A stretch of 43,621 nt of DNA from a virus, in the IMG/VR virus record IMGVR_UViG_3300030333_002853, positions 1 to 43,621 of that record. One strand, written 5' to 3'. The notes beneath the pieces are model-generated. The model was given only the letters and a program-made list of their open reading frames with translations, did not search any database and was not told where the DNA came from. Below, in pieces: positions 5,000 through 42,931 of this stretch (the first letter of the stretch is position 1; the number at the start of each line of letters is the position of its first letter). A program made the translations under genes and the position numbers.

Positions 5000-5980
5000 G
5001 TGGGTATTAAATCCAATAATCCAGCAGCATATTTTTTTAATATGTTTGGCAATACTGGACATGATGCTGGTAATCCAGCTCCTCATCCTTTTGGTGCAAG
5101 TGGTGGTATAACGGCGACTTACACTGATCCTACTGGATCTTATAAATCTCATACTTTTACTGGACCAGGTAATTTTATAGTTACTGGAGACCCTGCAACT
5201 GTTGATTATATTGTTGTTGGTGGTGGCGGTGCTGGTGGCAATTCTGTTTATGGTAGTTCTAATGGCGGCGGTGGCGGTGCCGGAGGAGTTTTAACTGGAA
5301 CTAGTTTCACCGTTACTGCACAAACTTATTCCATAACAGTTGGAGAAGGTGGTACGGGTAACCATCCAACAGGTACTGATGGTGGTAGTCCATCCGTATT
5401 TTCTACCGTAACAGCACAAGGTGGTGGTGGAGGTGGTTATAATAAAAACGCTACAGGTAATCCAGATCAAAATGGTGGTTCTGGAGGTGGTAGCTCATCC
5501 CATAACCCACCAGCACCAAATGGTTGGGGTTATGGAAATAGAGAAGTAGGTACAACTACACCAGCTCCATCTCAAGGAAATGATGGAGCATCTGGTTCAT
5601 CTAGTCCTCCAGCTTGGGGTTCTGGTGGAGGCGGTGGTGCTGGTGGTGTAGGTGGTGCTGCTTCTGTTAGTGTAGCAGGAGCAGGAGGAATAGGAGTAAA
5701 TAATGGTTATAGATATGGTCCTCCTACATCTGATCATCCAACTGCTGGTGATATTGGTTATGGTGGAGGTGGAGGTGGAACCAATTCAGGTGCTGGAACT
5801 CCAGGAGATCCACCAACGGCAGCGGTCCCCTATGGTGGTGGAGTAGGTAATTATAATGCTGATGGTAGTGATGGTGTAGATGGAAAAGGTGGCGGTGGCG
5901 GTGGAGGAAGTGGATATCCAACTGGCAATAATGGTGGATCAGGTGGTGATGGTATAGTTATAATTCGTTATGCTGTCTAA
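5000..5980 (+). CDS. Gly-rich adhesin-like protein, single unit, GTG start
   Basis: 326 aa. The GTG start at 5000 is set by AGGAGG at 4986-4991 with 8 bp spacing. The N-terminus MGIKSNNPAAYFFNMFGNTG matches that of the next gene. The unit follows the pattern seen in all Gly-rich genes here: YKSHTFTGPGNFIVT strand, DYIVVGGGGAGG, a long run of Gly clusters with Pro/Asn loops, and a closing GIVIIRY strand. This pattern belongs to a Gly-rich domain common in phage tail proteins. By analogy with the Gly-rich gp38 adhesin of Salmonella phage S16, it may form a polyglycine-II bundle at a fibre tip; this is inference. Confidence 0.85.
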   Translation: MGIKSNNPAAYFFNMFGNTGHDAGNPAPHPFGASGGITATYTDPTGSYKSHTFTGPGNFIVTGDPATVDYIVVGGGGAGGNSVYGSSNGGGGGAGGVLTGTSFTVTAQTYSITVGEGGTGNHPTGTDGGSPSVFSTVTAQGGGGGGYNKNATGNPDQNGGSGGGSSSHNPPAPNGWGYGNREVGTTTPAPSQGNDGASGSSSPPAWGSGGGGGAGGVGGAASVSVAGAGGIGVNNGYRYGPPTSDHPTAGDIGYGGGGGGTNSGAGTPGDPPTAAVPYGGGVGNYNADGSDGVDGKGGGGGGGSGYPTGNNGGSGGDGIVIIRYAV

Positions 5981-5983
5981 ATA
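5976..5983 (+). promoter_or_regulatory. Probable late promoter TCTAAATA
   Basis: CTAAATA variant of the late promoter overlapping the stop codon of the previous gene, 18 bp before ATG 6002. It matches the CCTAAATA class used elsewhere in this window but is weaker. Confidence 0.45.
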
Positions 5984-6001
5984 CATAAAAATGTTATAAC
6001 A

Positions 6002-8011
6002 ATGGGCATTCGTTCACAAAATAACCCTGCAGCATCTTATCTTGATAAGTGGTTAGCTACTGGTGTGGATGCTGGCATTGGAGATCAATATGGTCCTCCT
6101 ACTGGACATACTGCAACTGGTGGTATAACAGCTGATTATGTTGATCCGACAGGAGTAGTTTATAGATCTCATTCTTTTAAAGAATCAGGAACTTTTGAAA
6201 TAACTGCACTTTCACCCAGTGAACCTGCACACGTAGATGTCCTCGTGATTGGAGGAGGTGGAGGTGCTGGTAGTCAAATGCCTGGTTCTTCTCATGGAGG
6301 AGGTGGAGGTGGTGCCGGTGGTTTCCTTGAAACTCCTACTCATCCAGTTGCTGCAACTTCTTATCCCGTAGTTATTGGTGCTGGTGGTGCTGGATCCCAC
6401 AATCATCCTGATACTGCTCCCAGTCAAGGAGGAGTTGATACTACAGCATTTGGTCTGACTGCCGATGGTGGTGGTTTAGGTGGTGGTTCTGGTGCCAACC
6501 CTCCTGGTGGTAGTGGTGCATCAGGTGGTGGTGGAGGAATGGATACTGGTGAAGCTGGAACCACAGATCAACCTACACAAGGATATCCAGGTGGTGATGG
6601 TAATTGGAATAGTCCAGGGCCTGCAACAGGTGGTGCTGGCGGTGGTGGTGGTGCCGGTGCTGCTGGTTTAGCTGGTGGTATAGGTGGTACAAGAGCTGGT
6701 GGAGATGGTGGAGATGGAAAACAAAATTCATATAGAACAGGTGTAGCAGAATATTATGCTGGTGGAGGCGGTGGCGCAACTTATAATGCTCCTCCTGGTG
6801 CTGGCCAAGGCGGTCAAGGTGGTGGTGGAGATGGAGTTAATGATGGAGGAAACGGTCCTACTACTAAGTATCAATGGGGTAATCCTGGTGAGATGGGTAG
6901 TGGCGGCGGAGGCGGTGGTGGAGCTTCTGAAGGATTTGGTGGTAGAGGTGGTTCTGGAAGAGTAATAGTTAGATATCCAATCGGACAAATTCAAGCAGCT
7001 CCAGTTGCAAGTGGTGGAATAGTTTCTTATACTCCTACAAAAACTGTTCATACTTTCCAATCTTCAGGAACATTTACTGTAACTGATGGACCTCTTACTT
7101 GCGCTTTTCTAATCGTTGCTGGCGGTGGTGGTGGTTGCGGATCAGTTGTTTCTAGTGATGGTACTGCTGGTGGTGGTGCTGGTGGATTACTTACCAGTGA
7201 AACAAATCCTGTTAGTACTCTTTCAGAAAAAGCATTTGCAACAGGTGCTTATACAATGACGGTTGGTGCCGGTGGTGCTGCTCAAGGATATATGGGTGCC
7301 GTCTCTTATGGTCCCACATCTGCTGCAGAGACTTGGAGAGCAAAAAGTGGAGGAGATTCCCAAATGGGGCCTCCAACATTTGGTCCTGTGACTGAAATTG
7401 TTGCTGCTGGTGGAGGTGGTGGAACTCTAGGTGGTGCTCCAGGTATGCCAGGTGGTTCTGCTGGTGGTTCATCAGGTGGTGGTGGTGCTGGACCTGGTGG
7501 TGAAGGTAGTAAATATAATCCACAATCACCATACAACCCACAAGATGATGCTCCTAATCAAGGTAATGATAGTGGTCAAGGATCTGCTCCTCCTATAGCA
7601 AACTATGGTTCAGGTGGTGGCGGTGGATTTACTGGTGCTGGTGATCCTGGTGGAGACGGCGGCGGTGGAGACGGTGGTGCTGGTATAAATCTTTCTATAT
7701 CAGGAACTTCTACTGGATATGCCGGTGGTGGTGGTGGAGGTCGTGTTTCTCCTGCATCAACACGTAGTCCTATTGGACCTGCTGGTGCCGCAACTCATGG
7801 TGGTGGTGCTGGTGCTGGTGGAGTCGCACCGTATGTAAATTATGCTGGTACGTCTGGAACTATGAATACCGGCGGTGGAGGCGGTGGTGCTTCTGGTACT
7901 ACTGGTGGTGGACCTGATCCAGTAGTTCATCCAACCAATCAACTACAAGATAATAATATTGGCGGTGGTAATGGTGGATCTGGTGTTATTATCATTTCGT
8001 ACCCAACCTAA
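6002..8011 (+). CDS. Gly-rich adhesin-like protein, two tandem units
   Basis: 669 aa. The N-terminus (MGIRSQNNPAASYLDKWLAT) is paralogous to the preceding gene, suggesting tandem duplication. Unit 1 spans about residues 1-327 (YRSHSFKESGTFEI, HVDVLVIGGGGGAG, closing GRVIVRYP). Unit 2 spans about 330-669 (HTFQSSGTFTV, FLIVAGGGGGCG, closing GVIIISYPT). Both consist mostly of Gly runs broken by Pro/Asn/Ser loops, the likely variable ligand-binding surface. It has no signal or membrane segment. It is late-expressed and probably virion-associated. Confidence 0.85.
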   Translation: MGIRSQNNPAASYLDKWLATGVDAGIGDQYGPPTGHTATGGITADYVDPTGVVYRSHSFKESGTFEITALSPSEPAHVDVLVIGGGGGAGSQMPGSSHGGGGGGAGGFLETPTHPVAATSYPVVIGAGGAGSHNHPDTAPSQGGVDTTAFGLTADGGGLGGGSGANPPGGSGASGGGGGMDTGEAGTTDQPTQGYPGGDGNWNSPGPATGGAGGGGGAGAAGLAGGIGGTRAGGDGGDGKQNSYRTGVAEYYAGGGGGATYNAPPGAGQGGQGGGGDGVNDGGNGPTTKYQWGNPGEMGSGGGGGGGASEGFGGRGGSGRVIVRYPIGQIQAAPVASGGIVSYTPTKTVHTFQSSGTFTVTDGPLTCAFLIVAGGGGGCGSVVSSDGTAGGGAGGLLTSETNPVSTLSEKAFATGAYTMTVGAGGAAQGYMGAVSYGPTSAAETWRAKSGGDSQMGPPTFGPVTEIVAAGGGGGTLGGAPGMPGGSAGGSSGGGGAGPGGEGSKYNPQSPYNPQDDAPNQGNDSGQGSAPPIANYGSGGGGGFTGAGDPGGDGGGGDGGAGINLSISGTSTGYAGGGGGGRVSPASTRSPIGPAGAATHGGGAGAGGVAPYVNYAGTSGTMNTGGGGGGASGTTGGGPDPVVHPTNQLQDNNIGGGNGGSGVIIISYPT

Positions 8012-8024
8012 ATAAACCTAAATA
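8007..8024 (+). promoter_or_regulatory. Tandem late promoters CCTAAATA x2
   Basis: Two copies of CCTAAATAAA, exactly 10 bp apart (8007-8014 and 8017-8024); the first overlaps the stop codon of the Gly-rich gene. They lie 31 bp upstream of ATG 8055. Confidence 0.65.
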
Positions 8025-8054
8025 AAAGTAAACCATTACGAGAAATAAAAAGCG

Positions 8055-8498
8055 ATGGCTCATTTTGCAAAATTAGATGCTAACAACATTGTTGAGCAAG
8101 TCATTGTTGTGAGCAATGATGACATTAAAGACAATACAGGTACTGAAATAGAAAGTATCGGTGTTGCTTTTTGTCAGAAACTTTTAGGTGCTGATACAAA
8201 TTGGAAGCAAACCTCTTATAATGGTAATTTTAGAGGTAATTATGCTGGTATTGGTTATACCTATGCAACTAATGTAGCAACATTGGGTGTAGCTTCTACT
8301 GATGTTTTTCTACCTCAGCAACCTCATGCATCATGGAGTGTGGGAGTTAATACAGCATCTTGGTATTCTCCTCTTGGCAACCCACCTACATTAACAACGG
8401 CAGAAGTAACTGCTGGTAAGTATTATATTTGGGATGAGGACGCACATCAAGCAGATACTGCAAGTCCGAAGACCGTAGGTTGGGCAATAACAACCTAA
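8055..8498 (+). CDS. Conserved cyanophage structural-region protein, MAHFAKLD family
   Basis: A 147 aa protein beginning MAHFAKLDANNIVEQVIVVSN, a start I recognise from a conserved family of T4-like cyanophage proteins of unknown function found near structural genes. The middle is rich in Gly, Asn and Tyr (SYNGNFRGNYAGIGYTY); the C-terminus has GKYYIWDEDAHQAD. It has its own duplicated late promoter and a strong intrinsic terminator, so it forms a single-gene transcription unit between two fibre cassettes. No enzyme motif is evident; it is probably a virion or fibre accessory protein. Confidence 0.85.
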   Translation: MAHFAKLDANNIVEQVIVVSNDDIKDNTGTEIESIGVAFCQKLLGADTNWKQTSYNGNFRGNYAGIGYTYATNVATLGVASTDVFLPQQPHASWSVGVNTASWYSPLGNPPTLTTAEVTAGKYYIWDEDAHQADTASPKTVGWAITT

Positions 8499-8504
8499 AA
8501 ACAT

Positions 8505-8527
8505 GGGAGGTTCTTCCTCCCTTTTTT
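8505..8527 (+). terminator. Intrinsic terminator
   Basis: Perfect 6-bp GC-rich stem GGGAGG / CCTCCC with a TTCTT loop, followed directly by TTTTTT. It lies just after the stop codon of the 147 aa gene. Confidence 0.9.
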
Positions 8528-8531
8528 ATTG

Positions 8532-8539
8532 CATAAATA
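8532..8539 (+). promoter_or_regulatory. T4-type late promoter CATAAATA
   Basis: NATAAATA motif right after the terminator, followed by ACTAGAAAAAGT, close to the ACTAAAAAAGT leader found at other late promoters here; 17 bp before ATG 8556. Confidence 0.75.
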
Positions 8540-8555
8540 ACTAGAAAAAGTCGAT

Positions 8556-9374
8556 ATGTCAAGAGCAAGAGACTTAGCCGGTTTTTCAACCGCCACACTT
8601 GGAACCAATGATCTGAATGCAGGAATTGTAACTGCATCAGCTTATTATGGTGACGGTTCTCAGTTGGTTGGTGTTGGTGGAACTTGGATTGCTACTGCTG
8701 CTGGCATTCATACGACTAAAAATGTTGGTATAGGAACAACTAATCCTATTGGTGCTGCAGATTCAAATAATACTACTGTAGTTAATGCGGGTGTTGTTAC
8801 TGCCAACTATTATTATGGTGATGGTTCTAAACTAACTAACCTCCCTGCTGGATTAGGAACTGCTGTTTCTGCTAGTGGTGATGGATCTAAAATCTATTAT
8901 ACAGATAGAGTTTTAGATGTAGGTGCAGACCTTTCAATTGATGTACCTGCAACTGCTACTGTTGCATATACACAGTATCCTGAGATTGCTGTATCATCAA
9001 GTTATGATTTAACAATTGCAGATGGTGATGATCTTGTTGTTGATATTTTAGGTATTGGTACAACTGGTGCTCCTCAAACTCTTGCAGGTGGTGGTGGTAG
9101 AATACGTGCCGATAACTTTGTATCTAAAAATGGATACAATGCTCCAACATTTGCTAATGGTGTTACTGTTTCTACGGCTGCAACTGCTGGTATAGGAACT
9201 ATAACAACTTCAGTAGTTGTTGGTTCTGCCGTAACTGCTAACTCTGATGGTATTATAGTTGGTGGAGCAGTGACTGCTACAAGTTTGGTATATGGTAGTA
9301 CTGATGTCTCTACTGAACTGGCAACCAAAGCCACGACTGGCAAGGCAATTGCTATGGCAATGGTATTTGGATAA
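8556..9374 (+). CDS. Tail-fibre stalk protein, MSRARDLAGFST type
   Basis: 272 aa. After MSRARDLAGFSTATLG come stalk repeats: GIVTASAYYGDGSQLVGV, then GVVTANYYYGDGSKLTNL. A beta segment follows (DLSIDVPATATVAY ... DDLVVDILGIG) that resembles the C-terminus of the stalk gene at 20526. The C-terminal part is again stalk-like and ends GKAIAMAMVFG, much like the end of the 134 aa stalk at 16132 (GKAVGLAAFLG). It opens the second cassette, ahead of a small protein and a two-unit Gly-rich protein. A trimeric fibre shaft is inferred. Confidence 0.85.
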   Translation: MSRARDLAGFSTATLGTNDLNAGIVTASAYYGDGSQLVGVGGTWIATAAGIHTTKNVGIGTTNPIGAADSNNTTVVNAGVVTANYYYGDGSKLTNLPAGLGTAVSASGDGSKIYYTDRVLDVGADLSIDVPATATVAYTQYPEIAVSSSYDLTIADGDDLVVDILGIGTTGAPQTLAGGGGRIRADNFVSKNGYNAPTFANGVTVSTAATAGIGTITTSVVVGSAVTANSDGIIVGGAVTATSLVYGSTDVSTELATKATTGKAIAMAMVFG

Positions 9375-9377
9375 ATA
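9370..9377 (+). promoter_or_regulatory. T4-type late promoter GATAAATA
   Basis: NATAAATA motif overlapping the stop of the stalk gene, 24 bp before ATG 9401. The equivalent position before ATG 16566 has the same GATAAATA and a similar leader (TTACGGAG). Confidence 0.75.
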
Positions 9378-9400
9378 AACTTACGAGGACTTTTTAAGAC

Positions 9401-9811
9401 ATGGCAGCCCCAAATATAGTCAGTGTAGCAACCATTACTGGTGTTACTACCGCCATTGCCGGTGTGAGCACTGCAGGTGCTTTGGAAAGTGGTAAGTATG
9501 TAGGTGTAACAACTGTTGTTATCAATGCTGCTTCAAGTGGAAAGGTAATAAAGATCAATACTTTATCTGCAGCAGCAATTGGAGATACAACTGGTGCAAC
9601 GGTTTATATTTACGATATAGCAGCAACTCATATTAGTGCAGGTGCCACAGTTTCAGTTGGTACAACAGTAACTGTTCCTGTCAACTCTTTAGTTTCAATA
9701 ATAGATAAAAATAATTCAATATACTTAGAAGAAAATAAACAAATAGGTATTATAGGGCAATCTAACGCAGGACACTTAGATGTAGTCTGTGCTTATGAAG
9801 AAATTAGTTAG
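9401..9811 (+). CDS. Small cassette protein (136 aa), MAAPNI type
   Basis: A 136 aa beta-rich protein starting MAAPNIVSVATITG. Its middle and end (VVINAASSGKVIKINTL; NSIYLEENKQIGIIG; LDVVCAYEEIS) align by eye with the 122 aa protein at 16566 (LLANAASSNKLLKINSI; SPIYLEEGHSIRGG; LEVLICYDELDD). It is the second member of the small-protein family, each placed between a stalk gene and a Gly-rich gene. Its function is unknown; a structural connector or adhesin partner is plausible. It is followed by AGGAGG for the next gene. Confidence 0.85.
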   Translation: MAAPNIVSVATITGVTTAIAGVSTAGALESGKYVGVTTVVINAASSGKVIKINTLSAAAIGDTTGATVYIYDIAATHISAGATVSVGTTVTVPVNSLVSIIDKNNSIYLEENKQIGIIGQSNAGHLDVVCAYEEIS

Positions 9812-9823
9812 GAGGCCTGACTG

Positions 9824-11845
9824 ATGGGATTTATAGGAAAGAATAGAGGTAAAGCAATTTCAACTGGAGGTGGCGGCGGCTCTTTTAGTAGAGCAGATGT
9901 ATCATGGTTAGGTATTAATAGAACTCTTATTGGTGATCCTGGTGGTTTTAATGGTCATGTAGCAACAGGTGGTGTTGTTAATGATTATACTACTCCTACA
10001 GGAAAGGTCTATAGATCTCATACTTTTACATCTTCAGGAGTTTTTGAAGTAACAGAAATTGGTACTTATGATTCTGAAGTAGAATATTTGGTTGTTGCCG
10101 GAGGCGGTGGTGCTGGCGGAACATCTGGTGGTGGTGGTTTATATCATGGAGGTGGTGGTGCCGGTGGTTGTAGAACTAGTCTTGAAGGACACCCTGCTGC
10201 ATCTCCTACGAATTTTACAGTCGGTGTAGCTTCTTACACAATAACTGTTGGTGCTGGTGGTGCTGGTGGTGGTCAACCAGGTAATGAAAATGGATTTGAT
10301 GGAACTGATTCTGCGTTAGTTAATCCAACAACTGCTCCTGCAACTATTACTTCTACTGGTGGTGGAGGTGGTGGCCACCTTTATTCTGCTGGTAATAATG
10401 GTGGATCTGGTGGTGGCGGTGGATCAGGTAATCCACAATATGCTGGTGGTGAAGGTAATAATCCTCCAGTTAGTCCTCCACAAGGTAATGATGGTGGTGC
10501 AGGAAACTCACCTCCTCAATTCGGTGGCGGCGGAGGCGGCTGGGGTGCTGCAGGAAGTTCTAGTGATGCCAGTGGTGGTGCTGGTTTATCTTGTTTTATT
10601 GCAGGACCTCCTACTAATTCTCCGATAGGAACTCCATCTGGTCCTTCACCTGGAAGTGGTGGTGGATGGTTTGGTGGTGGTGGTGCTGGAGTTAGTCCTA
10701 CTGGTAATGCATCTGGTGGTGCTGGTGGTGGTGCCAATGAAGGATCCCCAACAGCATTGAACATGGGATTAAATGGAACACCTGGTACTGGTGGTGGGGG
10801 TGGTACTGCTCCAGGACCAACGGCTCAAAGAGGTGGTGCTGGTGGTAGCGGAATAGTAGCAATTAGATATCAAATAGCAGATACAGATACAAAGACAGCA
10901 AAGGCAACTGGTGGTGCAATAAGTTTTTATAATGGTAAGACCATCCATGCATTCACTAATTCAGGAACGTTAGTTACGTCTGGTGAGGCAATTCCTTCTG
11001 CAGAAGTCTTTATGGTTGCTGGTGGAGGCGGTGGTGGATTTGATGCTGCTGGTGGTGGAGGTGCTGGTGGTGTTAAATACAGACCTGATACTCCTTTAGA
11101 TGCAAGTACGACTTATACAATAACTATTGGTGGTGGCGGCGTTTCATCTGTTGCCCAAGATACTAAAGGATCTGATGGTAGTTCTACCGTCTTTGATGGT
11201 CCTCCTACAAGTAATCCTGGTATTGAAGTAAATGGCGGTGGTGGAGGTGGATCAAGAACTAGTAGTCCTGGTGAAGCAGGTGGCTCTGGTGGTGGCGGTG
11301 GTCGTCAAAATGGTACTGCTGGAGAGGCTAGTGGTAACCCAACTGAAACTGGATGGACTAATTATGGAAATGATGGTGGTGATTCCGGTAATAATTATGG
11401 TACTGGTGGAGGTGGTGCAGGTTCTCAGGGTGAAGACAATCCATCATATGATCCTATAACAGGTGTAGGTGGTGGTGGTGGTATTGGAATCCAAGCTCCT
11501 GCTACGTTCCGCAACCCTGAAGCTAGAATAGGTGGTTCTATAGACGGATCTTCAGATATTGCATGGGGATTTGCTGGAGGAGGTGGTGGTGGTGCTAATG
11601 CCGCTAACCCTGGTCCTCGTGGTGGCGGCGGTGGTCAAGGTGGAGGATGGAATAATCCAACCTCAACTATGTCTAGTGATGGACCTCATTATGGTGGTGG
11701 TGCTGGTGCTTATGATCCTAATGTATCTGGAACTAATGGTGAAAGATCAACCGGTGGAGGCGGCGGCGGTGGTAACAATAGTGGACCATACGCTAAAGGA
11801 TTTGAAGGTGGTTCTGGTATAGTCCTTGTAGCATATCCAACCTAA
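9824..11845 (+). CDS. Gly-rich adhesin-like protein, two tandem units
   Basis: 673 aa, preceded by GGAGG. Unit 1 spans about residues 1-350 (YRSHTFTSSGVFEV, EYLVVAGGGGAGG, closing GIVAIRYQI). Unit 2 spans about 360-673 (HAFTNSGTLVTSG, VFMVAGGGGGGF, closing GIVLVAYPT). The overall plan equals that of the gene at 6002, but the N-terminus differs (MGFIGKNRGKAIST), so the start domain is exchangeable. It contains many Gly clusters interrupted by Pro/Asn/Ser loops. It is a late virion adhesin candidate in the second cassette. Confidence 0.85.
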   Translation: MGFIGKNRGKAISTGGGGGSFSRADVSWLGINRTLIGDPGGFNGHVATGGVVNDYTTPTGKVYRSHTFTSSGVFEVTEIGTYDSEVEYLVVAGGGGAGGTSGGGGLYHGGGGAGGCRTSLEGHPAASPTNFTVGVASYTITVGAGGAGGGQPGNENGFDGTDSALVNPTTAPATITSTGGGGGGHLYSAGNNGGSGGGGGSGNPQYAGGEGNNPPVSPPQGNDGGAGNSPPQFGGGGGGWGAAGSSSDASGGAGLSCFIAGPPTNSPIGTPSGPSPGSGGGWFGGGGAGVSPTGNASGGAGGGANEGSPTALNMGLNGTPGTGGGGGTAPGPTAQRGGAGGSGIVAIRYQIADTDTKTAKATGGAISFYNGKTIHAFTNSGTLVTSGEAIPSAEVFMVAGGGGGGFDAAGGGGAGGVKYRPDTPLDASTTYTITIGGGGVSSVAQDTKGSDGSSTVFDGPPTSNPGIEVNGGGGGGSRTSSPGEAGGSGGGGGRQNGTAGEASGNPTETGWTNYGNDGGDSGNNYGTGGGGAGSQGEDNPSYDPITGVGGGGGIGIQAPATFRNPEARIGGSIDGSSDIAWGFAGGGGGGANAANPGPRGGGGGQGGGWNNPTSTMSSDGPHYGGGAGAYDPNVSGTNGERSTGGGGGGGNNSGPYAKGFEGGSGIVLVAYPT

Positions 11846-16949: not shown

Positions 16950-17978
16950 ATGGCACAAAGATTCTTAGGCGGTATATTTGGTAATACAGTACCATCAACA
17001 GCAGATCAACCTGATATTAGTGGTGTGTATGATTTGAATGGGCAATATTATATGTCCAAAGAAGGTGGTTGGGAAGCAACTTTCTCTGCCACTGGTGGAA
17101 CTACAGTAGATTATAATAGTAAAAGAATTCATATATTTACTTCATCTGGTAGTTTTGTTGCAACTGGATTGCCAGGAGATTGTGAATATGTTGTAATTGG
17201 TGGTGGCGGCTCAGGTGGTCGTGCCAATGGTGGTGCTGGTGGTGGTGCTGGTGGATATCGTACTGATACAGTTCCAGGTGTATCCGCTGGAACTTATGCT
17301 GTAACTATTGGAGCAGGTGGTAATTATCCTGGACCAAATCCAAACCCAACCAATGGTAAAGTTGCTGGTTCTACTACTACTTTAGCATTTCCTTCTTCTA
17401 TCGCCGCTGATGGTGGTGGAGGAGGTGCAGGTAGTGATATAAGTGACCCATTCTCTGCAGGTGGTGCTTCTCCTGGTAACGGTTCAGGTGGTGGCGGTGC
17501 AAGTACTGGAACCCATACTTCCAGTGGTGGAGGTAGTGGATCATATGGTAATAATGGCGGTCCAGGTTCAGGAAAACCAGGTCCAGGTTCATATAGACTT
17601 GGAGGTGGCGGCGGTGGTGCCGGTGGTTCTGGTGCTGCTGGAACTGGTGGAACCAGTGGAACAGGTGGAGATGGAGGTACAGGAGTTGAATTCCCCACAA
17701 CATTCCATGCTCCTGGATTACCTGTAGGTGATCCTGGTCCTAACGGTAGTGCATACTGGGCTGCTGGTGGCGGTGGCGGAGGAAGTCAAGAATCTGCTAC
17801 TGAAGTTGGTGAAGGTGGTGGACCTGGTGGTCCTTATGCTGGTGGTGGAGACGGTTCTGGTCCTGGTACAGGTGGTACAGATGGTGCAGCAAACTCTGGC
17901 GGTGGCGGCGGCGGTGCTGGTAGTAACGGATATGGTGGTGGCGGTCCTGGTTTAGTAATGATTGCTTATCCAATATAG
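16950..17978 (+). CDS. Gly-rich adhesin-like protein, single unit
   Basis: 342 aa, with AGGAGG upstream. The N-terminus (MAQRFLGGIFGNTVPSTADQ) is followed by IHIFTSSGSFVAT, EYVVIGGGGSGG, long Gly runs with Pro-rich loops (PGKPGPG type) and closing GLVMIAYPI. It is the last gene before the early-type oxygenase island. Many Gly-Pro and Pro-Gly steps make it a conceivable substrate for the prolyl-hydroxylase-like enzyme encoded just downstream (inference only). Confidence 0.85.
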   Translation: MAQRFLGGIFGNTVPSTADQPDISGVYDLNGQYYMSKEGGWEATFSATGGTTVDYNSKRIHIFTSSGSFVATGLPGDCEYVVIGGGGSGGRANGGAGGGAGGYRTDTVPGVSAGTYAVTIGAGGNYPGPNPNPTNGKVAGSTTTLAFPSSIAADGGGGGAGSDISDPFSAGGASPGNGSGGGGASTGTHTSSGGGSGSYGNNGGPGSGKPGPGSYRLGGGGGGAGGSGAAGTGGTSGTGGDGGTGVEFPTTFHAPGLPVGDPGPNGSAYWAAGGGGGGSQESATEVGEGGGPGGPYAGGGDGSGPGTGGTDGAANSGGGGGGAGSNGYGGGGPGLVMIAYPI

Positions 17979-22114: not shown

Positions 22115-23245
22115 ATGGCTCCTCTTAAGACAACTTTAGGTAGAAGTGTAGGAAAACTTATAGAGTCTTTTCGTGGTAGGGATGCTATAGGTACTCTCAA
22201 ACTTAATAGTACTATAGTAACAAACAGAAAGGTAACAGAGGCCAGGTTTGATGTGAGTGGGGGAACGGAAATAACTTCTGGTGATTATAAGTATCATGTT
22301 TTCACTTCGACTGGTTCTCTTACATTAACACAAAATGGATCTGGTCTTTTCAGTACTCTTAATCCAGATAATTCAGGAAATTTTGATTATCTAGTTATTG
22401 CTGGTGGTGGCGGTGGAGGTGCTACTCGTGCTGATGGAAATGGTGGACGTGGTGGCGGTGGTGCTGGTGGTGTAAGATCTAATGATCCTAATTATCCTCG
22501 TGCTACTCCTGATACTGCGTTAACTGCTCCCGCTGTTGGTACCCCCTATACTTATACTGTAACTGTCGGTAGTGGTGGTGCTGCTGCTAACCTTCCTGGT
22601 GGTCCTCCTCCAACACATGGTGGTAATGGTCAAAATAGTTCAATAATAGGTCCCGACCATCCTGGTTCTGGTGGAGCCGGTGGTGTAGTTGCAACTGGAG
22701 GTGGTGGTGGTACTGTATCACCTGGACAAGCTTCTGGTGAGGGTGGTTCAGGTGGTGGTGGTGCATATGGTACTCTTGTAGAAGGAGAAGCAGTTGCATC
22801 TCCTGACGGTTTAACTCCTGATGCTCAAGGTTATGAGGGTAATGTAGGACAAGGTGCTGGTGGTGGCGGCGGTGGATCTGGTGGTACTTCTTCTCCACTG
22901 TCAAACAATGGTGGTAATGGTGATCAATTCCCAGAGTATCCTGGTCCCGTTATTAGTCCTGCCGTTTCTCCCCTCTCACCAGAATGGCTTACTTCTGTAG
23001 GTCCTACCGGTTACTACGCTGGTGGTGGTGCTGGTGGCGGTGGATATTCATCGAGTACCGGTGGCGGCGGTGGAGACGGCGGCGGCGGTAGTGGTTCTGA
23101 TTATGGTAGTAATAATGCTCCTGCTGATCCTGGTGTTAATTACACTGGTTCAGGTGGTGGTGGTGGATCAGGTCCTGCTGGTGGTAATTTTAATGCTGGT
23201 GATGGTGGAAATGGTATTGTGATAGTTAGATACAAATATCAATGA
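22115..23245 (+). CDS. Gly-rich adhesin-like protein, single unit
   Basis: 376 aa. A distinct basic N-terminus (MAPLKTTLGRSVGKLIESFR) precedes the common unit: YHVFTSTGSLTLTQNG, DYLVIAGGGGGGA, long Gly runs with Pro/Ser loops, closing GIVIVRYKY. It is the fourth Gly-rich locus. Different N-terminal heads fused to one conserved unit suggest modular exchange between loci. Late expression comes from the promoter upstream of the small protein. Confidence 0.85.
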   Translation: MAPLKTTLGRSVGKLIESFRGRDAIGTLKLNSTIVTNRKVTEARFDVSGGTEITSGDYKYHVFTSTGSLTLTQNGSGLFSTLNPDNSGNFDYLVIAGGGGGGATRADGNGGRGGGGAGGVRSNDPNYPRATPDTALTAPAVGTPYTYTVTVGSGGAAANLPGGPPPTHGGNGQNSSIIGPDHPGSGGAGGVVATGGGGGTVSPGQASGEGGSGGGGAYGTLVEGEAVASPDGLTPDAQGYEGNVGQGAGGGGGGSGGTSSPLSNNGGNGDQFPEYPGPVISPAVSPLSPEWLTSVGPTGYYAGGGAGGGGYSSSTGGGGGDGGGGSGSDYGSNNAPADPGVNYTGSGGGGGSGPAGGNFNAGDGGNGIVIVRYKYQ

Positions 23246-39496: not shown

Positions 39497-39521
39497 CATA
39501 TTGTGCGTTCTGATATATAAT
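39493..39521 (+). promoter_or_regulatory. Perfect sigma70-type promoter (TTGACA-17-TATAAT)
   Basis: TTGACA 39493-39498, 17 bp spacer, TATAAT 39516-39521, 25 bp before ATG 39547. The layout is near-identical to the promoter at 17981 (both have TGATATATAAT or TGATATGATATATAAT). Confidence 0.85.
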
Positions 39522-39546
39522 TTACATGTGACCAATTGCCCTCGTT

Positions 39547-39873
39547 ATGTATGAACCAGAAGTCAATGATTACGTCATTTGGAAGAGACCGAATTCAGAA
39601 AATGTTGATGAGGGTTGGGTATACTTTAAAGGAGATAAATGCAGCAAGGATATTAACAACAACTGTCACCCAAGATACTTAACAATAGAGACAGGAATTA
39701 GACTAAAACCAGAGTGTGAAACTACCGACAAATTACAACTCAAAAAATGTAAATTAGAACACAAATATATCCATACATTGTTATTATGTTATGAACAAGA
39801 TTGGTGTGATCTAAAGTATGTCAAATCAAGAGAAAATGCACACTCAACTGAATATTTTCGAAGGGCAATCTAG
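39547..39873 (+). CDS. Conserved phage hypothetical protein (108 aa)
   Basis: 108 aa. MYEPEVNDYVIWKRPNSENV, DEGWVYFKGDKCS, TIETGIRLKPEC, HTLLLCYEQDWCDLKYVKSR: a small beta-barrel-like pattern. I recall cyanophage proteins with the same YEPxVNDYVxW ... GWVYF ... LLCYxxxW order; the function is unknown. It is early-expressed from a perfect promoter. The next gene overlaps its end by 56 bases. Confidence 0.8.
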   Translation: MYEPEVNDYVIWKRPNSENVDEGWVYFKGDKCSKDINNNCHPRYLTIETGIRLKPECETTDKLQLKKCKLEHKYIHTLLLCYEQDWCDLKYVKSRENAHSTEYFRRAI

Positions 39874-40084
39874 CGGCCTGATTAACAACAATCCAACACA
39901 AGATTGGGACGGTTTGATTTATACTTTCTGTTACACCAGTAAGGATAACTTAGTCAACGGATTTTATCAGACATATTGTATAGATTCATGGGGCAAATTA
40001 AACACTGTAATGTTAATGGAATTGTTCAAAGATTACAACTATTCGATAACAGTTAGAGAGCATGATTACCGTCCCCTTGAGTAA
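39818..40084 (+). CDS. Hypothetical protein (88 aa)
   Basis: 88 aa, overlapping the previous gene by 56 bases. MSNQEKMHTQLNIFEGQSSG, then IYTFCYTSKDNLVNGFYQTY, a Cys/Tyr-rich beta core, and MLMELFKDYNYSITVREHDY. The internal ATG at 39836 (M7) would give a shorter overlap. No recognised domain. It ends at the hairpin preceding the long non-coding segment. Confidence 0.65.
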   Translation: MSNQEKMHTQLNIFEGQSSGLINNNPTQDWDGLIYTFCYTSKDNLVNGFYQTYCIDSWGKLNTVMLMELFKDYNYSITVREHDYRPLE

Positions 40085-40099
40085 CAACAACTCAGGGGG
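40072..40099 (+). terminator. Hairpin, possible terminator
   Basis: CCCC-T-TGAGT / ACTCA-GGGG stem (9 bp, one bulged T) with an AACAACA loop. It overlaps the end of the 88 aa gene. The following GTATTTCTG is only moderately T-rich. Confidence 0.45.
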
Positions 40100-40105
40100 T
40101 ATTTC

Positions 40106-40232
40106 TGTGGAAAACTATCATTTTCTGTGGAAAAGTACGTAAATAAGTATTATAAATGGTTATTTAAATATAAAAGCGTTGTTTATATCGTTTTCCACAA
40201 GTGTGTGTAAAAGTATTAAATAGTGTGGAAAT
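40106..40232 (+). promoter_or_regulatory. Cluster of four DnaA-box-like sites around an AT-rich segment
   Basis: TGTGGAAAA at 40106-40114 and 40126-40134 (20 bp apart), its reverse complement TTTTCCACA at 40191-40199, and TGTGGAAAT at 40224-40232. TTTTCCACA is, as I recall, the preferred DnaA box of cyanobacteria. The segment 40138-40190 between them is very AT-rich. No ORF covers 40085-40461. It is a candidate replication origin or DnaA-controlled element. Confidence 0.5.
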
Positions 40233-40289
40233 TAGGGGTTGAATTGTTGTTATAAATGTCTTGTTAATCGTGCTGAGGTTTAGTGATCT

Positions 40290-40333
40290 TAGCGAGCATA
40301 ACATGGAACGGAGTTCTTGTCAACAACTCGCTA
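40290..40333 (+). other. Inverted repeat TAGCGAG / CTCGCTA
   Basis: Perfect 7-bp arms (40290-40296 and 40327-40333) around a 30-nt loop that holds a smaller GAAC / GTTC hairpin. It is possibly structured RNA or DNA in the non-coding segment. Confidence 0.4.
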
Positions 40334-40334
40334 C

Positions 40335-40440
40335 ACGGTTTGTAACACTTAACCTGTTTACAGTTGTTATAATATAGTGACATTACGGTTTATAACACTG
40401 TGGGGGTTGCAATTTACCCTGTTATCAGTTATAATTAGTA
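40335..40440 (+). repeat. Imperfect tandem duplication with two -10 elements
   Basis: ACGGTTTGTAACACT at 40335 and ACGGTTTATAACACT at 40385 (50 bp apart), each followed by CTGTT..CAGTT and TATAAT (40368-40373, with an extended TGT; 40430-40435, with TTGCAA 17 bp upstream). Probably two promoters arising by duplication; the second reads into the gene at 40462. Confidence 0.55.
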
Positions 40441-40461
40441 TTGACAATCTATCGAAGAGTT

Positions 40462-40674
40462 ATGTACACTAACTCAGGGTCTAATTTACGCAAGATTCGT
40501 GTTACTTTAGACTTCGAAGTTGATGGCAATTCTTTTAATCCACATCAGATCAATTATCACTCACTATTTGATATAAACTCTGATGAAGAGAAACTAACAA
40601 TTACCATCGAGGATTTGTCAGTTGATATTGACACTTTATGGGAGCAATCTTATGGCCTAAATGATAACAATTGA
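40462..40674 (+). CDS. Small hypothetical protein (70 aa)
   Basis: 70 aa from ATG 40462 (MYTNSGSNLRKIRVTLDFEV); a TTG at 40441 overlaps the promoter region and is less likely. A beta strand start, then acidic LFDINSDEEKLTITIEDLSV and DTLWEQSYGLNDNN. Unknown function. It is driven by the TTGCAA-17-TATAAT promoter in the duplicated block. Confidence 0.7.
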   Translation: MYTNSGSNLRKIRVTLDFEVDGNSFNPHQINYHSLFDINSDEEKLTITIEDLSVDIDTLWEQSYGLNDNN

Positions 40675-40698
40675 AATACACAGTTATTAACATTTAGA

Positions 40699-40727
40699 TT
40701 GACAGATTAGCAGTCTTATGTTATAAT
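40699..40727 (+). promoter_or_regulatory. Perfect sigma70-type promoter (TTGACA-17-TATAAT, extended -10)
   Basis: TTGACA 40699-40704, 17 bp spacer, TATAAT 40722-40727 preceded by TGT. It reads into a 155-bp leader before the cupin gene. Confidence 0.85.
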
Positions 40728-40732
40728 CTGAT

Positions 40733-40831
40733 ATGGCAGTATTGCGGGTTTCGTTGATGCCGTCCCCCGCCGTGATGCGTTTTAAAAAAGTACCTAATGC
40801 TAACCTACAAAAGTCTGCTTTTGACATATAA
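40733..40831 (+). other. GC-rich leader segment / possible 32-codon ORF or small RNA
   Basis: Locally GC-rich DNA in an AT-rich region. GCGGG (40744-40748) can pair with CCCGC (40766-40770). An ORF of 32 codons (MAVLRVSLMPSPAVMRFKKV...) starts about where transcription from the promoter at 40699 should begin, so it would be leaderless. Real peptide, structured leader of the cupin gene or small RNA cannot be told apart here. Confidence 0.35.
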
Positions 40832-40882
40832 AATTTCTCGCTAATATTTTTCTATATAAAAAACCCCGTCCAATATTTTTTT

Positions 40883-41221
40883 ATGTACAGATTTTTTCGC
40901 CCCTGGGGATTTTATGAAGACCACTTTCAGGATGAAGGTTATAGACTAAAGAGATTAGTAGTCAAACCCCATCAGAGATTATCATTACAATATCATAAGA
41001 AAAGATCAGAACATTGGGTATGCGTCCAAGGACATGGTAAAATAGTATTAGGCGAAGATACTCTCAAAGCCTATCCTGGTAAATACTTCTACATTCCTAC
41101 TAACGTAATTCACCGTATCATAGCAGAAGATGATGAGTTAGTCATCATTGAAGTTCAGACCGGTGATGAATGTATAGAAGAAGACATCACTAGACTGGAG
41201 GATGATTATGACCGATGTTAG
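40883..41221 (+). CDS. Type II phosphomannose isomerase-like cupin
   Basis: 112 aa, the size of one isolated cupin domain. RPWGFYEDHFQDEGYRLKRL, VVKPHQRLSLQYHKKRSEHW, VQGHGKI, YIPTNVIHRI and VIIEVQTGDECIEEDITRLE-DDY follow the type II PMI/ManC C-terminal domain almost step for step; H38, E43, H44 and H77 are the likely metal ligands. It would interconvert mannose-6-phosphate and fructose-6-phosphate, or act on a similar sugar. The fused nucleotidyltransferase domain of ManC is absent. It heads the glycan cluster. Confidence 0.9.
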   Translation: MYRFFRPWGFYEDHFQDEGYRLKRLVVKPHQRLSLQYHKKRSEHWVCVQGHGKIVLGEDTLKAYPGKYFYIPTNVIHRIIAEDDELVIIEVQTGDECIEEDITRLEDDYDRC

Positions 41222-41420
41222 TTATCACATATATTCTAGAGATGAAGTCCTCTTTCACAGTTTAAGTGAAGAGGATTTTAAAGTAAGATGGGATATGTTG
41301 AATAGTCTAGTAGGTACTGGTACAGATTTATCAGCAGTATCAGATTTAAGTTATGAGAAAGTATCATCAGGTATAGGGGGAGCACCTAGTTACGGACCTG
41401 ATATTGAACCTAGTTACTAA
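41208..41420 (+). CDS. Small hypothetical protein (70 aa)
   Basis: Start ATG 41208 (MTDVSYHIYSRDEVLFHSLS) chosen because GGAGG at 41197-41201 is at good spacing; ATG 41202 touches that site. It overlaps the cupin gene by 14 bases. A charged helix (EEDFKVRWDMLNSLVG) precedes a Ser/Gly/Pro-rich tail. It resembles small proteins next to glycan or oxygenase genes in cyanophages; unknown function. Confidence 0.75.
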   Translation: MTDVSYHIYSRDEVLFHSLSEEDFKVRWDMLNSLVGTGTDLSAVSDLSYEKVSSGIGGAPSYGPDIEPSY

Positions 41421-41974
41421 TGTCACATAATCATATTGAAATATACGATAATTCTTTAAATTTAAAAGAATGCGAAGGTATCATAGACTATTTCGAACAA
41501 TCAGAATATAAGAAAAAAGGCGTTGTAGGAACTAAGAATGTTAATAAAAAATATAAAGAGAGTACAGATCTACCGATGTGGCTTAGTAGACAAGATTTAT
41601 TAACTAATAGAGTAATAGGTAGAGCATTAAGTATAGGTGTGGGAAAATATAAAGAGAAATATCCAATGTTATCTGAAATGAGTTTATGGAATGTAGCTCA
41701 AGGTTATAATATTCAAAAGTATACTGAAGGTGAAGGATATTATATTATGCATTGTGAGCATGAATATCCTAACGTTGATAGAATCATGGCATGGATGATT
41801 TATTTGAATGATGCAAAATGTGGTACTAGATTTTATTATCCTCGAAGAGATATAAAAGCAAAGAGAGGAAGGTTAGTTATATGGCCTGCTAGTTGGACAC
41901 ATCCTCATTCTGGTATTACACCTAATAGAGGTATAAAGTATATTGCTACTGGTTGGTTTTGTTATGTCCCTTAA
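41420..41974 (+). CDS. 2OG-Fe(II) oxygenase, HCEH type
   Basis: 184 aa. YNIQKYTEGEGYYIMHCEHE contains H111-x-E113, an HxE variant of the usual HxD metal motif; RIMAWMIYLND, GTRFYYPRRDIKAKRGRLVI, WPASWTHPHSGITPNRGIKY and IATGWF complete the jelly roll. The distal His is H161 or H163, and R170 or K173 could bind 2OG. It is a well-represented P4H-like phage family; the substrate is unknown. It overlaps the previous stop by one base. Fourth oxygenase-like gene in the window, of another subtype than those at 18033-19951. Confidence 0.85.
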   Translation: MSHNHIEIYDNSLNLKECEGIIDYFEQSEYKKKGVVGTKNVNKKYKESTDLPMWLSRQDLLTNRVIGRALSIGVGKYKEKYPMLSEMSLWNVAQGYNIQKYTEGEGYYIMHCEHEYPNVDRIMAWMIYLNDAKCGTRFYYPRRDIKAKRGRLVIWPASWTHPHSGITPNRGIKYIATGWFCYVP

Positions 41975-42154: not shown

Positions 42155-42931
42155 ATGGCAAAAGGATTTACTGTAAAAGCATCTGCTCCTAAGAAAAAGA
42201 AAGAGGCAGAGTGGGATATAGATGCTATCAAAGCCAGAATGAAAGGAAAGAAGATCGTCTTCTGTCTCCCAGGCAGAGGATGTTCTTTTGTCTTTTTAAA
42301 GGCATTCGTTCAACTCTGCTTCGACATGGTTCAAAATGGAATGAGTATCCAGATCAGTCAGGATTACTCTTCTATGGTAAACTTTGCTAGATGTAAGGTA
42401 TTAGGTGCTAATGTATTACGTGGACCTAATCAAAAACCTTGGGATGGTAAGTTAGAGTATGACTATCAATTGTGGATTGACTCTGACATCGTATTCTCTT
42501 CAGAAAAGTTCTGGCAGTTATGTGATCTTGCCGTACCTGCTGAAGGTGACGAAAAACGTATCGTTGCTGGATGGTATGCTACTGAAGATGGTTCAACTAC
42601 TTCTGTTGCACACTGGTTGGAAGAAGATGACTTCCGTAAGAACGGTGGTGTTATGAATCATGAAACAGTAGAGACTATCTCTAAGCGTAAGAAGCCTTTC
42701 ACCGTAGACTACACAGGTTTCGGTTGGGTCATGATTAAGAATGGTGTCTTCGAAGATGAGAAGATGTCTTATCCTTGGTTTGCTCCTAAGATGCAAGTCT
42801 TTGAATCCGGTGCGGTTCAAGATATGTGTGGAGAGGACGTTAGTTTCTGTTTAGATGCTATTGAAGCCGACTACGAAATCTGGTGCGATCCTCGGATACG
42901 TGTTGGACATGAGAAGACAAGGGTACTTTAA
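42155..42931 (+). CDS. Glycosyltransferase-like protein, DXD type
   Basis: 258 aa. After a Lys-rich start (KKKKEAEWDIDAIKAR) comes a GT-A-like fold: KIVFCLPGRGCSFVFLKAF, SMVNFARCKVLG, YDYQLWIDSDIVF with DSD 109-111 as the metal/nucleotide-sugar DXD, VDYTGFGWVMIKNGVF, and GEDVSFCLDAIEADYEIW before a final RVGHEKTRV (H252). It probably transfers a sugar from a nucleotide-sugar; acceptor unknown (phage protein, host surface or DNA). It is followed directly by a basic 46 aa gene. Confidence 0.8.
   Translation: MAKGFTVKASAPKKKKEAEWDIDAIKARMKGKKIVFCLPGRGCSFVFLKAFVQLCFDMVQNGMSIQISQDYSSMVNFARCKVLGANVLRGPNQKPWDGKLEYDYQLWIDSDIVFSSEKFWQLCDLAVPAEGDEKRIVAGWYATEDGSTTSVAHWLEEDDFRKNGGVMNHETVETISKRKKPFTVDYTGFGWVMIKNGVFEDEKMSYPWFAPKMQVFESGAVQDMCGEDVSFCLDAIEADYEIWCDPRIRVGHEKTRVL

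Follow-up and report, generated by a model that had tools for sequence, protein, structure and literature searches.

Why should a T4-like phage carry a cluster of cyanobacterial DnaA boxes? With a helicase loading system encoded by T4 itself, a need for DnaA is not obvious. The accessible part of PMC3016281 likewise gives the T4 helicase loading system as self-encoded. The relatives of the window (the whole stretch of 43,621 bp that was analysed) are T4-like cyanophages, assigned to the Kyanoviridae where classified. We lean towards reading the element as an early cyanomyovirus replication origin, T4 oriE-like and primed by transcription, to which host-DnaA boxes would have been added repeatedly.

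Positions 40106-40232 hold a total of five boxes, three exact copies of TTTTCCACA and two copies with one mismatch (Table 1). The cluster described in the initial annotation was confirmed and is stronger than stated there: the four boxes listed are all present, and a fifth at 40204-40212 (TTTTACACA) had been overlooked. Over the whole 43,621 bp the exact word occurs only three times, always in the cluster, where shuffled sequences lead to an expectation of 0.88, and boxes are not equally frequent elsewhere; one-mismatch boxes show no excess in the whole window (15 observed versus 20 expected). First-order Markov simulations of the window (n = 3000) never placed three exact boxes within 94 bp (0/3000) and placed two in 4/3000, which bears out the earlier argument that 9-mers this close are unlikely by chance. 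The 20-bp period proposed for the direct boxes was found inside the left pair and likewise inside the right pair. Also, a 28-nt block with the box pair is duplicated on either side of the AT-rich core, with 75% identity. This core is the AT-rich stretch noted earlier between the boxes: 118 of the 43,561 60-mers of the window are equally or more AT-rich. In stability, the lowest 60-mer of the element takes rank 63 among the 43,561. The boxes flank it inside the longest gap between plus-strand ORFs, and the longest non-coding segment claimed previously corresponds to 40085-40440 (356 bp), the longest stretch free of plus-strand ORFs of at least 40 aa.

Table 1. Features of the element and of its borders (positions are those of the window).
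Feature	Positions	Strand	Basis
DnaA box 1, exact TTTTCCACA	40106..40114	-	word search
DnaA box 2, exact TTTTCCACA, 20 bp from box 1	40126..40134	-	word search
DnaA box 3, exact TTTTCCACA, inverted	40191..40199	+	word search
DnaA box 4, TTTTACACA, one mismatch	40204..40212	-	one-mismatch search
DnaA box 5, ATTTCCACA, one mismatch, 20 bp from box 4	40224..40232	-	variant enriched in relatives
AT-rich core, candidate unwinding element	40137..40190	.	60-mer at 40141 = 48/60 AT; low stability; aligned in relatives
Leftward sigma-70-type promoter TTGACA-N17-TATGCT, TG before -10	40295..40323	-	10/12 consensus positions
Conserved start region of presumed leftward transcript, GCTAAGATCAC...	40253..40294	-	alignment of leftward elements
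Terminator-like hairpin, left border, end of upstream ORF	40073..40099	+	10-pair stem, weak T run
Possible rightward promoter TTGCAA-N17-TATAAT of next ORF	40407..40435	+	10/12 consensus positions
Next ORF, 70 aa, right border	40462..40674	+	phrog_12516, E 9.5e-12

The boxes sit on a conserved scaffold, made of a leftward promoter and the AT-rich core, which the initial annotation had missed. The promoter is directed at the boxes and at the core, antisense to the neighbouring genes. On the minus strand, the aligned elements have in common TTGACA-N17-TA, mostly with TG before the -10, followed by the GCTAAGATCAC... start region; the AT-rich core aligns across relatives, box-bearing and box-less alike. 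A count of the leftward promoter in 26/38 elements is biased because the profile seeds were picked by that motif, and the unbiased count is 30/62 loci: a plain motif search of 62 loci gave 32 TTGACA-N17-TA matches, 30 of which, in 30 loci, are the conserved leftward element. A second promoter type, TTGACA-N17-TAAG, was read by eye in S-PM2, S-SM1, S-ShM2 and Syn1, with a degenerate form in Syn9. The boxes lie mostly 70-260 bp downstream of the leftward promoter. The leftward strand holds no conserved ORF (the longest one from an ATG measures 0-77 aa depending on the locus, with a median of about 19), and an Rfam search of the element matched no family. At the left border, the hairpin is the only terminator-like site in 39500-41500, where shuffles expect 0.7, and it could exclude rightward transcription from the element. 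In the alignment, the start region (ATCACAAGACCTAGAAGGATTTAAAGG-like) is present as iteron-like tandem repeats in some relatives (L060, L024, L046 and L082).

To examine relatives, 80 IMG/VR loci were fetched via the neighbouring protein GC102 (window 42155-42931), so that the boxes had no influence on the choice of loci. In the 143 kb situated up to 2.8 kb upstream of the GC102 gene there are 72 copies of TTTTCCACA versus 5 in the remaining 524 kb, and 4 of these 5 form one cluster barely past the 2.8-kb cut-off. The element profile matches 52 of 85 loci (the 80 fetched, the window and four named phages); the 33 loci without a match are partly short contigs, and many loci are cut by contig ends. 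Three loci (L049, L087 and L088) give no profile match although 6 kb upstream are present, and two (L034 and L043) have boxes without a profile match. The 38 elements analysed, all of one neighbourhood type, were obtained from the 40 that reach 350 bp, after removal of near-copies. In these non-redundant elements of ~430 bp, TTTTCCACA was found 52 times in 16.3 kb versus 10 times in 411 kb of flanks; it is the commonest of all 9-mers there, 52 copies against an expectation of about 0.4. Concerning the conservation of the boxes, 23/38 elements have at least one exact box and 17/38 at least two, but the distribution is patchy, with none in 15/38. Spacing is conserved as well: direct neighbour boxes (within 60 bp) are 20-22 bp apart in 13 cases out of 16. 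The one-mismatch variants enriched in relatives are TTATCCACA, ATTTCCACA, TATTCCACA and TTTTCAACA; tolerated variants preserve the 3' end, only one change being seen at the last two positions. When mapped on a tree of the neighbouring protein, the possession of at least two boxes switches about ten times; well-supported branches force five or more of these changes. The 15 box-less elements show no excess of degenerate boxes. From these repeated changes and the lack of leftover degenerate boxes, the boxes come out as an optional addition to a scaffold that stays constant.

Among 19 complete cyanomyovirus genomes, which contain 69 exact boxes versus 41 for the reversed word, clusters (two or more boxes within 50 bp) were found in eight: P-TIM68, S-SM2, Syn9, S-PM2, S-SM1, S-ShM2, Syn1 and DSL-LC03. 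All of them are positioned 5' of gp25-gp6, and in seven of the eight genomes the cluster lies between the T4-GC 36 helicase and gp25; in DSL-LC03 the T4-GC 36 helicase was not found. The other 11 genomes, including Bellamy, Sf-FS3, P-SSM2, P-SSM4 and P-HM1, have no cluster. A DnaA_C domain (PF08299), searched as a mark of a phage-encoded DnaA, was found in 0/19. The element is situated 2.7-7.9 kb 5' of gp6 in five named cyanophages, and its candidate positions in cultured phages are 58.1 kb in S-SM2, 52.6 kb in Syn9, 19.2 kb in S-PM2 and 52.8 kb in S-ShM2.

The host side was approached through a phage PsbA search, which led to 12 genomes and then to 61 of one family, from which the dnaN loci were taken; four short loci were dropped, leaving 37 (21 low-GC and 16 high-GC). 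In the low-GC loci, TTTTCCACA is present 22 times in the 9.2 kb upstream of dnaN versus 0 times in 78 kb elsewhere, with at least one exact box on the dnaN side of 17/21 loci; in the high-GC loci it is present 5 times in 7 kb upstream of dnaN versus 0 times in 59.5 kb. Thus, TTTTCCACA marks the dnaN side of picocyanobacterial chromosomes. According to the accessible part of PMC4674748, the same word is the experimentally studied DnaA box of S. elongatus, Anabaena and Cyanothece, and Prochlorococcus is cited there as having no box near dnaA; the boxes reported here are near dnaN. The earlier identification of the phage words as putative cyanobacterial DnaA boxes is well supported by their conservation, their location, their degeneracy pattern and their identity with the host-origin word. 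The ranks of box variants in phages and in host origins were not significantly correlated (rho 0.22, p 0.27). DnaA-trio-like runs, detected with a simple TAN-run scan, occur in 22/37 host loci versus 1/38 phage elements, so the phage element has no unwinding module of the oriC type; DnaA-trios are also absent from 15% of bacterial genomes (PMC8287927, accessible part). On the low-GC picocyanobacterial dnaN side (L327-L355), we also observed TTTTCCACA together with CTACTACTA runs resembling DnaA-trios.

Among known systems, T4 oriE offers the closest likeness. The cyanophage element and oriE share an early-type promoter, antisense to structural genes and 5' of gene 6 (-7-8), and direct repeats in its vicinity. 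The T4 annotation places oriE at 79355 in the (-) direction and gives its primer RNA as complementary to the gene 5 transcript; we found a sigma-70-like site, TTGATG-N17-TATAAT, on the oriE strand near 79355. The accessible part of PMC3016281 describes for oriE an early-mode promoter and repeats of unknown role, and for oriF and oriG a promoter plus an AT-rich unwinding element; the term 'DnaA' is absent from its main text in that part. By motif match, the cyanophages have an early host-type promoter antisense to, and 5' of, the gene 6-7-8 block, and AT-rich, easily opened DNA lies downstream of this antisense promoter. The two differ in that oriE lies within gene 5, at a distance of 1.7 kb from gene 6, whereas the cyanophage element is intergenic. 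No DnaA box cluster was found in T4, where the nearest pair of 23 TTWTNCACA sites is 438 bp apart, nor was a box cluster found in KVP40. The succession of a promoter and an openable AT-rich stretch also recalls T4 oriF, ori(uvsY) (T4 side from PMC3016281, accessible part). However, the promoter of oriF is a middle promoter carrying a MotA site, and oriF is located in the interval from uvsW to gene 25, while the cyanophage uvsW is elsewhere. The helicase gene left of the element was considered as uvsW, and the element as the uvsW-25 interval of oriF; both were rejected on the position of the T4 UvsW orthologue, which is elsewhere in 19/19 cyanophages. The argument from oriF was therefore dropped, oriE being the closer match. 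In P-HM1 (GU071101, 114945-116352), the UvsW orthologue occupies two overlapping frames instead of one, owing to a frameshift, a sequencing error or a real split.

The cyanobacterial oriC resembles the element in having TTTTCCACA boxes, the same 9-mer, adjoining AT-rich DNA, and differs from it since the phage element has no DnaA-trio runs and no dnaN or dnaA neighbour and has a conserved promoter at its edge. Of the traits of a bacterial oriC, a cluster of species-type boxes was thus found by sequence, but neither a DnaA-trio nor a DnaA of its own. The datA locus of E. coli is a DnaA titration site, a cluster of boxes outside the host origin. The phage element has in common with it several clustered DnaA boxes outside the host origin, and differs in that its boxes are tied to a promoter and an AT-rich core at a fixed place of the genome. 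The lytic Pseudomonas phage vB_PseuGesM_254 has an origin predicted by Ori-Finder, an AT-rich stretch with DnaA boxes (PMC11512268, accessible part), so DnaA boxes in lytic phages are not new as such; that case is a single unrelated phage, for which the accessible part of the source describes no comparison of relatives and no conserved antisense promoter. The 120 viral contigs retrieved by the box-pair pattern (L089-L208) also contain TTTTCCACA boxes in direct pairs, with 12 or 21 bp as frequent distances. As 70 of these 120 match neither cyanophage profile, some being of high GC, box pairs alone are not diagnostic, and clusters of DnaA boxes may be widespread among unrelated phages.

On the oriE-like reading, the host-type sigma-70 promoter would fire antisense, away from the gp25-gp6-gp7 block, and the leftward transcript would cross the openable AT-rich core, giving an RNA primer or an R-loop. 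The DnaA box clusters of the window and of about half of the relatives, with direct pairs about two helical turns apart, flank or adjoin this core. Host DnaA bound to them might help to keep the core open, might halt the transcript or make it pause, or might link firing to the host replication state; as a side effect, DnaA would be drawn away from the host oriC. The evidence is at the level of sequence (boxes, enrichment, conservation, promoter motif, AT-rich core, no phage DnaA found, host-origin word), and from it we infer that DnaA binds, that the promoter is active and that the element works as an origin. The replication origin proposed in the initial annotation is a candidate supported by its anatomy only: as in T4 oriE, an early promoter on the antisense strand leads into AT-rich DNA. 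Because 15/38 elements are box-less and 11/19 genomes are cluster-less, DnaA is not essential to the scaffold and would be accessory: the core origin could work without DnaA, which would have been added as a helper or a timer. Besides these box-less cases, the lack of DnaA-trio runs and the helicase loading system of T4, two further observations weigh against the oriE-like reading. The promoter is a consensus match whose exact conserved form is present in 30/62 loci only, and the box pair of P-TIM68 is right of the leftward promoter, while S-ShM2 and DSL-LC03 have second, right-hand clusters just 5' of the rightward ORF. More tentatively, it is possible that T4-like lytic cyanophages have repeatedly recruited host DnaA to a conserved antisense-transcribed origin, where the boxes would both help to open or time it and strip DnaA from the host oriC, so that the start of phage replication would be coupled to the replication state of the host.

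The right-hand clusters of S-ShM2 and DSL-LC03, together with the usual position of the boxes downstream of the leftward promoter, would suit DnaA acting as a transcription regulator that would repress, activate or road-block the leftward RNA or a rightward early gene, the element then not being an origin. We regard this as unlikely, since no target is obvious on a leftward strand devoid of conserved ORF (0-77 aa) or Rfam family, and since the AT-rich core between the box groups is left unexplained. About as unlikely, if not slightly more so, is a DnaA trap, by which the rising number of phage copies would soak up host DnaA and shut the host oriC, with no role in phage replication. In its favour, there are 3-5 boxes per phage copy here against at least two exact boxes in only 5/21 low-GC host dnaN-side regions, and the presence of boxes is optional among relatives. 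On the other side, a trap would be free to lie at any place of the genome, but all clusters are 5' of gp25 beside the same promoter and AT-rich core, and the box spacing is constrained to about two turns.

It is also conceivable, but improbable, that the boxes bind another phage or host protein, such as a phage initiator with its iterons, whose site equals the DnaA box by coincidence. Repeats of unknown role exist in T4 oriE (PMC3016281, accessible part), and the non-significant correlation between phage and host variants goes in the same direction. Against it, the commonest 9-mer, obtained without bias, is the cyanobacterial DnaA box studied experimentally (PMC4674748, accessible part), the same word is enriched at host dnaN, and no phage DnaA domain was found. 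Chance clustering in AT-rich DNA, with which the lack of excess of one-mismatch boxes over the whole window would agree, was rejected on the comparison of relatives and on the simulations: three boxes within 94 bp never arose in the latter, and 52 boxes stand against about 0.4 expected in the 38 relatives. We hold it for very improbable.

In the open-access papers searched we found no report of where cyanomyovirus replication starts, nor, among the titles and the openings of abstracts listed, any report of DnaA boxes in cyanomyoviruses. The element gives a precise place to look for the replication start in cultured cyanomyoviruses. If host DnaA binds there, T4-like cyanophages would rely on host initiation to a greater extent than expected from the T4 model, and the box-less relatives would be natural controls for the contribution of DnaA.

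Other features of the window were observed. At 40699-40840, a non-coding stretch that is conserved and ends in CTAACCTACA comes after a perfect TTGACA-N17-TATAAT promoter. This stretch is present upstream of the GC102 gene in 34/38 loci, with 37 occurrences in 428 kb; it has no Rfam match and is possibly an early non-coding RNA or a leader. The ORF list includes very glycine-rich, paralogue-like long ORFs at 5000-11845, 16950-17978 and 22115-23245, which probably encode fibre or adhesin proteins. Also, a small ORF at 40883-41221 weakly matches phrog_7851, a PHROG of cysteine dioxygenase (E 1.6e-5).
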